In this document: in pieces, positions 40,607 to 41,253 of the stretch | Layout: every line of letters begins with the position of its first letter | Numbering within the stretch: position 1 is the first letter of the stretch | Assembly: GCA_018660825.1 (NCBI GenBank) | Contig: JABJJO010000089.1 | Coordinates: forward strand, 1 to 64,000 | Direction of reading: 5' to 3' | Source of the DNA: Planctomycetaceae bacterium | Lineage (GTDB): Bacteria > Planctomycetota > Planctomycetia > Pirellulales > Pirellulaceae | DNA: 64,000 nt | Program-made: the position numbers and the translations under genes | Notes under the pieces: model-generated | What the model saw: only the letters and a program-made list of their open reading frames with translations | The model's database searches: none | What the model was told of the DNA's origin: nothing

Positions 40607-40741
40607 CTACACTCACGCTATTTCCCGTTCATTGAGTTGCGAGAGTCAATTAAATTTCATGTGCGTCGTTAATCAATAACAATGTATGCATTCACCCATT
40701 GCCAAAAATATACGGATAAAATAGACTGGACAATTCAATTA

Positions 40742-40814
40742 TCCCCTGTAGCTCAGTTGGTAGAGCAGTCGGCTGTTAACCGACTTGTCGCAAGTTCGAG
40801 TCTTGCCGGGGGAG
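40742..40814 (+). tRNA. tRNA-Asn (anticodon GTT)
   Basis: A complete 73-nt cloverleaf: acceptor TCCCCTG pairs with CGGGGGA (one T-G wobble), D arm around GCTCAGTTGGTAGAGC, anticodon stem GTCGG/CCGAC with loop CTGTTAA giving anticodon GTT, T arm GCAAG/CTTGC with TTCGAGT loop, discriminator G as is usual for Asn. CCA is not encoded. It is followed 7 nt later by a very strong terminator. Confidence 0.96.
40788..40811 (+). repeat. direct repeat copy 1, 3' half of tRNA-Asn
   Basis: These 24 nt, covering the variable-region end, T arm and part of the acceptor 3' strand, recur exactly at 41165-41188, 377 nt away. They begin TCGCAAGTTCGAG and end GCCGGGG. A repeat covering the tRNA 3' half is the usual form of an attachment site for tRNA-targeting elements. 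Confidence 0.85.
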
Positions 40815-40820
40815 CTTCCA

Positions 40821-40856
40821 AAGGCCCCCATACATTTATGTATGGGGGCCTTTTTT
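40821..40856 (+). terminator. Rho-independent terminator of tRNA-Asn
   Basis: A perfect 14-bp stem (AAGGCCCCCATACA with its complement), loop TTTA, followed by six T residues counting from the stem end. It separates the tRNA transcript from the GIY-YIG gene and rules out the long reading frame that runs through the tRNA. Confidence 0.93.
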
Positions 40857-40870
40857 ATTGGATATGTCAC

Positions 40871-41137
40871 ATGTCTGACGTCTTTTATGTATACGTTTTG
40901 CGTAGCAAAACAACGGGAAAGCACTACACCGGACAAACGTCCAATCTCCAGAGGCGGATGATACAACATAACAACAGCCATTTCCCAACGAGCTTTACCG
41001 CTCGTAACCCAGGGCCCTGGATATTAATACATTTCGAACAATTCGCTACGCGTAAGGAAGCAATACGACGCGAGCGATGGCTTAAATCTGGCGTCGGTCG
41101 ACAGTGGCTGGCCGTTTCCATCTCACGCGGATCGTAG
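40871..41137 (+). CDS. GIY-YIG nuclease family protein (88 aa)
   Basis: The 88-residue product is a single GIY-YIG domain: FYVYVLRSKTTGKHYTGQTSN holds the first signature (YVY then YTG, with Thr in place of the usual Ile), NLQRRMIQHN the conserved Arg, and KEAIRRERWLKSG the conserved Glu. This is the minimal YhbQ-like form. Longer family members are homing endonucleases or UvrC; for the stand-alone form cleavage is plausible but unproven. I start at the ATG at 40871; an in-frame start at 40682 would translate the tRNA and its terminator. The gene lies exactly between tRNA-Asn and a partial copy of that tRNA, which suggests a tRNA-associated mini-element. Confidence 0.88.
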   Translation: MSDVFYVYVLRSKTTGKHYTGQTSNLQRRMIQHNNSHFPTSFTARNPGPWILIHFEQFATRKEAIRRERWLKSGVGRQWLAVSISRGS

Positions 41138-41149
41138 GAGGGTTAACCG

Positions 41150-41164
41150 TCCGCCGCAGGCGGA
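41150..41164 (+). repeat. 15-nt hairpin inserted in the tRNA-Asn duplicate
   Basis: TCCGCC-GCA-GGCGGA is a perfect 6-bp inverted repeat with a 3-nt loop. It replaces the variable region of the duplicated tRNA. It looks like a small REP/palindromic element; I see no second copy elsewhere in the window. Confidence 0.7.
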
Positions 41165-41188
41165 TCGCAAGTTCGAGTCTTGCCGGGG
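41165..41188 (+). repeat. direct repeat copy 2 of tRNA-Asn 3' half
   Basis: Exact 24-nt copy of 40788-40811. Together the copies bracket the terminator and the GIY-YIG gene, as attL/attR sites would. Confidence 0.85.
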
Positions 41189-41253
41189 TAGATATGGCCG
41201 TACCGATACCACTGTCCTCGCTGAACTAGCCCAGCGACCTTCGGCGGGAACAT

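Follow-up and report, generated by a model that had tools for sequence, protein, structure and literature searches.

A short GIY-YIG nuclease gene and the broken tRNA copy across it from an intact tRNA gene probably form a minimal mobile element of ~450 bp, which inserts inside tRNA genes and restores one copy of its target, with the broken half serving as a homology arm. This reading builds on direct observations of the anatomy of the locus, its recurrence, the clustering of tRNA isotypes on the nuclease tree, a conserved active site and tandem arrays of tRNA halves. It is further supported by the range of isotypes and phyla, the palindromes in the broken copies, a patchy distribution, the position of contig ends and the precedents of the phage enzyme SegB and the fungal mitochondrial mORFs.

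In the window, i.e. the whole stretch of 64,000 nucleotides from a Planctomycetaceae bacterium that was analysed, the layout spans positions 40742-41188 and consists of a tRNA-Asn, a terminator, the nuclease gene and a broken tRNA piece. The features are:

40699..40727, + strand: promoter-like site (TTGCCA, 17 nt, TAGACT) upstream of the tRNA-Asn; a consensus match only
40742..40815, + strand: intact tRNA-Asn(GTT), on which ARAGORN and Rfam agree
40820..40853, + strand: terminator-like hairpin between the tRNA-Asn and the nuclease gene
40871..41137, + strand: gene of a single-domain GIY-YIG nuclease of 88 aa (ORF list, PF01541)
41142..41149, + strand: tRNA-Asn remnant, tRNA positions 34-41 (GTTAACCG), read from the sequence
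41150..41164, no strand: 15-nt perfect palindrome TCCGCCGCAGGCGGA, replacing tRNA positions 42-46; the motif is also found in the remnants of other genomes
41165..41188, + strand: tRNA-Asn remnant, tRNA positions 47-70, 24/24 nt identical

The original prediction had placed the 88-aa gene between an intact tRNA-Asn and a partial copy, with no integrase, and this is confirmed: the ORF list contains no integrase in the interval from tRNA to remnant. The two pieces of the copy were described correctly, whereas the palindrome between them had been overlooked. The suggested ORF with a translated tRNA in its N-terminal side is also present (151 aa, 40682-41137). At up to 3 mismatches the 24-mer of tRNA positions 47-70 occurs twice in the assembly, in the tRNA and in the copy (E-value of 3e-10 for the copy in a local search), and the copy ends without the final acceptor-end bases. 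Shuffles gave a mean of 0.14 matches to TCCGCCGCAGGCGGA per window with one mismatch allowed, while 0.8 promoter-like consensus sites and 0.9 terminator-like hairpins were expected and one of each was found. The tRNA-Asn is the only one found in the window's assembly (G000), where the other matches are merely weaker (75-82%) or short. On other contigs of this assembly, three copies of a longer repeat (L065, L066, L067) contain TCCGCCTTTGGCGGA, in two cases inside the loop of a larger hairpin with a T-run behind it.

The window protein (87 residues after the start) matches PF01541 with an E-value of 8.7e-15, and its AlphaFold model shows one GIY-YIG domain with a mean pLDDT of 85.9. Among 46 tRNA-linked proteins the residues Y8 (45/46), Y19 (46/46), R29 (46/46) and E68 (44/46) are conserved, which by analogy with GIY-YIG enzymes we take to be those of the active site. 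The best fold matches in the PDB are UPF0213 (E 7e-4) and Slx1 (E from 1e-3), while I-TevI appears at rank 24 (E 1.2); by sequence, the nearest solved relatives are 1ywl (2e-8) and 1zg2 (8.4e-7), i.e. again UPF0213 small GIY-YIG proteins/Slx1. This closer likeness to UPF0213/Slx1 than to I-TevI counts against the element reading, as does the absence of a DNA-binding domain beyond the GIY-YIG fold in the 88-aa model. The domain search of the window protein returned GIY-YIG only and no HUH tyrosine transposase. A group I intron setting was rejected, since an Rfam search of 20 loci at gathering thresholds returned tRNA and one 16S rRNA and no such intron. Carriage by phages was likewise rejected, no relative having been confirmed in viral contigs or phage records.

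A nuclease linked to an intact and, in the window's assembly, apparently single-copy essential tRNA could also be an addiction or defence gene that harms cells or invaders, with the tRNA as rescue or protection. The toxicity of overexpressed SegB to E. coli, noted in the accessible part of PMC13096335, fits this explanation. It leaves the broken copies and the palindromes unaccounted for, and PADLOC finds no match for the window protein, so that we regard it as very improbable. A weak PADLOC match to a homing endonuclease was obtained for one relative, L262.

To define the recurrence of the layout, 84 loci were examined: 53 from a scan of a genome contig database with three proteins (window, G007 and G059), 29 further loci among 33 matches in 392 genomes of the window's phylum, and the window, G007 and G059 themselves, with L068 set aside as the same record as G007. 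A locus was regarded as tRNA-linked if a tRNA on the same strand lay within 700 nt upstream or 400 nt downstream, and tRNA calls that overlapped the nuclease gene or contained the TCCGCC palindrome were not accepted as intact tRNAs. With L084 left out, 48 of the 84 loci are tRNA-linked. A second fragment of that same tRNA lies across the nuclease gene in 45 of these 48, counting L078, whose tRNA has another palindrome in its D-loop; the three exceptions are L076, L090 and L127. The recurrence in related genomes that the original prediction had proposed to look for was thereby found. Nine isotypes (Met, Asn, Pro, Ser, Val, Gly, Arg, Asp and Ala) and, among named hosts, six phyla (Planctomycetota, Bacteroidota, Ignavibacteriota, Chlorobiota, Verrucomicrobiota and Patescibacteria) are represented. 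All tRNA calls within 1.2 kb are on the strand of the nuclease gene except at L115. For comparison, a tRNA within 1.5 kb was found at 1 of 19 loci with other GIY-YIG genes of the relatives (L007-L025).

Not all loci conform. In 36 of the 84 there was no tRNA call; 19 of the 36 are from the genome contig database, and in 12 of these 19 the contig ends less than 400 nt upstream of the gene. The remaining tRNA-less loci are unexplained by contig ends and mostly belong to other branches of the tree that have no tRNA link, which speaks against the element reading. At four loci without a tRNA call (L070, L073, L104 and L110), palindromes and tRNA-like pieces were recognized by eye. Among the 53 scanned loci, contigs end within 400 nt of the gene upstream in 14 cases and downstream in one, as repeats upstream of the gene would cause.

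The orientation of the broken copies bears on the nature of the target. In 34 of the 45 loci the intact tRNA precedes the gene and a 3' part is displaced; in the other 11 the 5' part is displaced and the intact tRNA follows the gene. A tRNA together with a partial tRNA is a common mark of integrase-borne elements, and the layout could be the relic of one whose attachment site was the tRNA 3' end. As the break is internal and interrupted by a palindrome, the 5' part is displaced in those 11 loci and the window interval holds no integrase, this reading is contradicted by the anatomy across loci and can practically be discounted. The internal break and the displaced 5' parts also contradict the earlier claim that the tRNA 3' end is the target.

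The broken copies are marked by palindromes. Perfect inverted repeats (6 bp or longer, loop of 2-6 nt) were found in 39 of 45 remnants, compared to 151 of 952 equally long windows from other parts of these loci. At L092, L093, L102, L140 and L147, the best inverted repeat may be a terminator or an adjoining stem. TCCGCC..GGCGGA is the commonest palindrome in the remnants; others occur as well, such as GGTCGCCGCGGCGACC at a Pro locus and CCTGCCTGCCGGCAGGCAGG at an Arg locus. TCCGCC palindromes flank the gene on both sides in G059, L069, L072, L074 and others, and on the downstream side only in the window. At planctomycete Asn loci (e.g. L071, L074, L121 and L122), the palindrome and the TTAA after it provide the last codons and the stop of the nuclease gene. 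Strong hairpins, terminators included, are found beside the gene at tRNA-linked loci upstream in 17 of 47 and downstream in 19 of 48 cases, with a background of 43 in 637.

The TCCGCC palindrome is also dispersed in some of the genomes, with 9 copies in G000, 2 in G007, 0-2 in four genus-mates, 43 in G059, 47 in G344, 178 in G368 and 38 in G388. Only one of the nine copies in G000 adjoins a tRNA, and many of the sampled sites in G344 and G388 share extra flanks by eye, i.e. they are parts of larger repeats. The nuclease was considered as the mover of this planctomycete palindrome and rejected in this role: the support does not go beyond co-occurrence, and G388, with no nuclease in the 4 kb examined, also has 38 copies.

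The isotype of the tRNA follows the nuclease lineage to a large extent. Trees were built on 83 columns and have many open forks; the first nuclease tree was calculated without fourteen short, broken or duplicate proteins, and the split into initiator and elongator Met uses labels assigned from sequence. For the 46 tRNA-linked proteins, the isotype changes 15 times on the tree compared to a mean of 28.8 after shuffling, and none of 200 shuffles was as low. Nine Asn proteins form one clade (100/99), all from one phylum and hence confounded with host descent. A Ser clade (98/95), in which 5' parts are displaced, unites Ignavibacteriota, the window's phylum and an unplaced bacterium, and an initiator-Met clade of eight (95/85) spans Bacteroidota, Ignavibacteriota and Chlorobiota. 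The correspondence is imperfect, with 5 changes needed for initiator Met, 3 for elongator Met and 3 for Pro, which counts against the element reading. Nuclease lineages mostly keep to one isotype, with these exceptions.

Near relatives of the window show filled and possibly scarred sites. In G007, from the same genus, the nuclease protein is 98% identical and both neighbours match those of the window; the two nucleases have 3 differences, for which dN/dS is uninformative. An additional 5' half of tRNA-Asn precedes the intact tRNA in G007 and terminates at the anticodon loop with TCCGCCTTTGGCGGA; a partial palindrome and a tRNA-Asn 3' piece lie downstream. In G059, from another family of the order, the nuclease is 60% identical to the window protein. 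Here, three identical 78-nt units of 5' half and palindrome precede the intact tRNA-Asn and the nuclease gene, and the copy after the gene is nine bases short at its start, with the palindrome in its anticodon loop. Tandem units of this kind occur in G059, L072 and G368.

The distribution in the genus is patchy. The 98% identical gene is present in G000 and G007, and 6 of 7 other genomes of the genus have a tRNA-Asn but, in the sequence available, neither nuclease nor copy, a view limited by contigs that end 133 and 62 nt past the tRNA (G005 and G006) or inside it (G002 and G008); in G004 the match is merely a weaker one to tRNA-Asn. In G003, of the same genus, the sulfatase neighbour is present without a tRNA-Asn beside it. 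In the family of G059, 16 of 19 other genomes searched have a tRNA-Asn match of 89-100%, the flanks of the G059 locus are non-adjacent among the matches listed, and G451 and G462 gave further matches to the copy region of G059. The empty sites expected by the original prediction were therefore found in part: six genus genomes have the tRNA-Asn without gene or copy, but no clean empty site with both flanks conserved was found at G003, at G388 or in the family of G059, nor one for the Val locus in the genus of G071. The tRNA locus moves or rearranges in these lineages, and no insertion event was caught.

G368 and G388, two genomes of one genus with one contig each, have the flank upstream of the tRNA-Asn in common. 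G368 contains the nuclease, a palindrome-bearing 3' copy and, after a fragment of another nuclease copy, tandem units of leader and 5' half. In G388 there is a single tRNA-Asn, preceded by the scar-like piece GCGCAGGCGGATTAACCGCTA, and the 4 kb examined contain no nuclease. The downstream flank of G368 lies elsewhere in G388, which indicates loss or rearrangement instead of a clean empty site. The palindrome followed by TTAACCG (one mismatch allowed) was matched in 9 of the 392 genomes, of which G344 and G368 have the nuclease. In two others, G196 (L245) and G116 (L250), a palindrome-broken tRNA-Asn 5' half lies just upstream of the intact tRNA-Asn, with no nuclease within about 1.5 kb; in the other five no tRNA piece was seen by eye. 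The nuclease-free remnants of G388, G196 and G116 fit the scars of lost elements and equally an origin without the nuclease, and those in G196 and G116 lower the strength of the element reading.

The remnants in G196 and G116 also fit a reading in which nothing inserts into tRNA genes and a resident GIY-YIG gene with its tRNA was duplicated in place by unequal recombination, the extra tRNAs then decaying and gaining palindromes. Arrays of tRNA halves exist, the terminator is repeated too in L082, L096, L079 and L107, and in L071, L079 and L107 a second nuclease copy starts after the remnant. Moreover, the longest remnant fragment equals the intact tRNA letter for letter in 36 of the 45 loci; the restored half is thus not visibly foreign as it is in the mORFs, a point against the element reading. 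Tandem duplication does not readily account for the same layout in nine isotypes with either half displaced, or for an isotype that follows the nuclease lineage across phyla, and we consider it unlikely.

The element reading suggests a sequence of events. The nuclease would cut the interior of a tRNA gene, and the break would be repaired from the element copy, the intact tRNA pairing with one end and the broken half beyond the nuclease gene with the other. Judging from the anatomy, the recipient would end up with a single restored tRNA and the nuclease gene, its native half having been displaced. The palindrome in this half may mark the junction and probably spoils the target, preventing both recutting and function as a tRNA. 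Transcription of the nuclease gene probably starts at the tRNA promoter, since both genes share one strand. Repeated cutting would yield tandem arrays of tRNA halves such as those observed. If this is correct, essential tRNA genes in at least six phyla are colonised by an element of ~450 bp that has one protein of 80-100 aa and no recombinase, and the host does not lose its tRNA. It would explain GIY-YIG genes beside tRNAs and some of the contig breaks at tRNA genes in draft genomes, and provide a source of isotype-specific tRNA-gene nucleases.

A different setting was found for the nearest relatives, proteobacterial and other, on plasmid or chromid records. From sets of 34 and 42 records, many of them redundant, 22 loci were drawn, and none has a tRNA within 4 kb (ARAGORN finds one, farther away). 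A CGTC- or TGTC-tagged palindrome lies within 300 nt on both sides of the gene in 12 of the 22 (10/19 and 2/3), and 7 of 874 control windows for the first 19 loci were positive for CGTC pairs. The 12 positives (L257, L260, L261, L262, L264, L268, L270-L273, L276 and L277) correspond to about nine independent loci and come from Neisseria, where the repeats are dense (12 in 12 kb) and chance is possible, Azospirillum, Novosphingobium, Sphingobium, Rhizobium CIAT894, Shinella, Neorhizobium and S. meliloti. Sphingobium contributes three records of one locus, one of them with a broken gene, and Shinella two loci, one seen twice. Frequently, one CGTC copy precedes the gene by 49-100 nt and a second, inverted one directly follows it, a REPtron-like layout. 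Aeromonas has an imperfect second copy and Photobacterium a downstream copy only, and other repeats flank the gene in Planktothrix and at a second S. meliloti locus. CGTC pairs are absent from R. tumorigenes and Rhizobium K1/93 (one locus), Spirosoma, Sphingomonas, Sinorhizobium C101 and the S. medicae fragment. Repeats on both flanks were also seen at 8 of 28 tRNA-less loci (control 2/158) and at 3 of 19 other GIY-YIG loci (control 0/53).

Some of these genes have particular neighbours or are decayed. In Azospirillum lipoferum 4B (AZO_p3, L268), the REP-flanked gene lies between sufB and sufC of an Fe-S cluster operon. The small GIY-YIG gene of Planktothrix agardhii p1 (L265), with TGTCATTCTGAG repeats on both sides, lies between an MmeI-like restriction gene and drmA of a DISARM-type cluster. 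The copy in Sphingobium TomTYG73 (L277) is broken, and that of Sinorhizobium medicae (L278) is decayed, a short N-terminal fragment being present in nine S. medicae records.

tRNA genes, like REP palindromes, are hairpins by nature, and the nuclease might recognize hairpin or branched DNA instead of tRNA sequence and move or exchange palindromes, with the split tRNA as one outcome. The tagged palindromes around the plasmid-record relatives support this explanation, as does the resemblance, in fold and in sequence, to UPF0213 and the branched-DNA nuclease Slx1. Of 18 short interruptions of the remnants, 17 fall within tRNA loops compared to 12.6 expected (P 0.012), a weak preference since the rows are related. 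CGTC-tagged pairs occur at none of the 48 tRNA-linked loci, window included, so that the tRNA and REP settings are linked by protein similarity and palindromes and not by a shared repeat. Many of the dispersed TCCGCC palindromes of G344 and G388 have shared flanks of their own and no tie to the gene, and the tracking of isotypes suggests sequence recognition. Hairpin recognition as the general explanation thus appears rather improbable.

In a broader form, which we put forward tentatively and regard as unlikely, small single-domain GIY-YIG nucleases could be a palindrome-mobilising class parallel to RAYT/HUH, whose REP-flanked branch in Proteobacteria mobilises CGTC REPs and whose window branch attacks tRNA genes for their hairpin nature, with a restored tRNA and a palindrome in the broken copy as the result. 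The splitting of tRNA genes, the arrays of tRNAs and the dispersal of short palindromes would then all come from a single hairpin-directed chemistry. For CGTC-tagged REPs, the accessible text of PMC3733652 reports no dedicated transposase and none flanked by CGTC repeats, an open question that would gain a named candidate gene for testing. In common with REP/RAYT systems and CGTC REPs as described there, the palindromes are short and dispersed and, in the proteobacterial relatives, flank a DNA-cutting gene. RAYTs, however, are HUH tyrosine enzymes (PMC3733652), while the window protein is a GIY-YIG enzyme.

We found no description of the layout in bacterial chromosomes in the open literature, with most subscription journals and preprints outside this scope. 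The passages of the 2006 GIY-YIG survey on 'tRNA' and 'neighbo' contain no linkage to tRNA genes (PMC1564403). The earlier statement that the mechanism is undescribed is correct only in part, with SegB and the fungal mORFs as close precedents. Homing-like GIY-YIG elements are already known; within the open literature, we found no account of a tRNA that is split and restored, of a palindrome in its broken half or of such a single-domain nuclease.

The nearest solved relatives of the window protein by sequence and fold are UPF0213 and Slx1. SegB-like free-standing GIY-YIG homing endonucleases have a separate DNA-binding region after the catalytic domain, whereas the window protein has one domain of 88 aa and no such region. 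Compared with tRNA-targeting integrative elements, an integrase is missing, and window-type loci have no simple direct repeat of the tRNA 3' end.

In the mORFs of fungal mitochondria (e.g. atp6, cox2 and atp9 of Glomus), an endonuclease gene is inserted within a gene, the carried end restores this gene and the native end is displaced beyond the endonuclease; one of the four mORFs (atp9) has a GIY-YIG enzyme (PMC3630166). A restored target with its native end displaced past the endonuclease gene is likewise found at 45 of 48 tRNA loci. The mORF targets are protein-coding and mitochondrial, the carried end differs from the native one whereas here the longest fragment is mostly identical, and the accessible text describes no palindrome (PMC3630166).

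SegB is a free-standing GIY-YIG homing endonuclease of T-even phages (PMC13096335, PMC2988022), which cuts within tRNA genes and amplifies a tRNA and its own gene in tandem via short homology between the tRNA 5' region and the gene 3' region (PMC13096335). Its motif RAWTSGAAC, at 23 of 83 sites (PMC13096335), is by our own reading the T-arm consensus of tRNAs in reverse complement. SegB is a phage protein, while searches of viral contigs and phage records gave no match to the window protein, and a split and restored tRNA or a palindrome is not described for SegB in the accessible parts of these two papers. As in our loci, its GIY-YIG gene lies outside introns and beside tRNA genes, and SegB is the closest precedent for the proposed mechanism.
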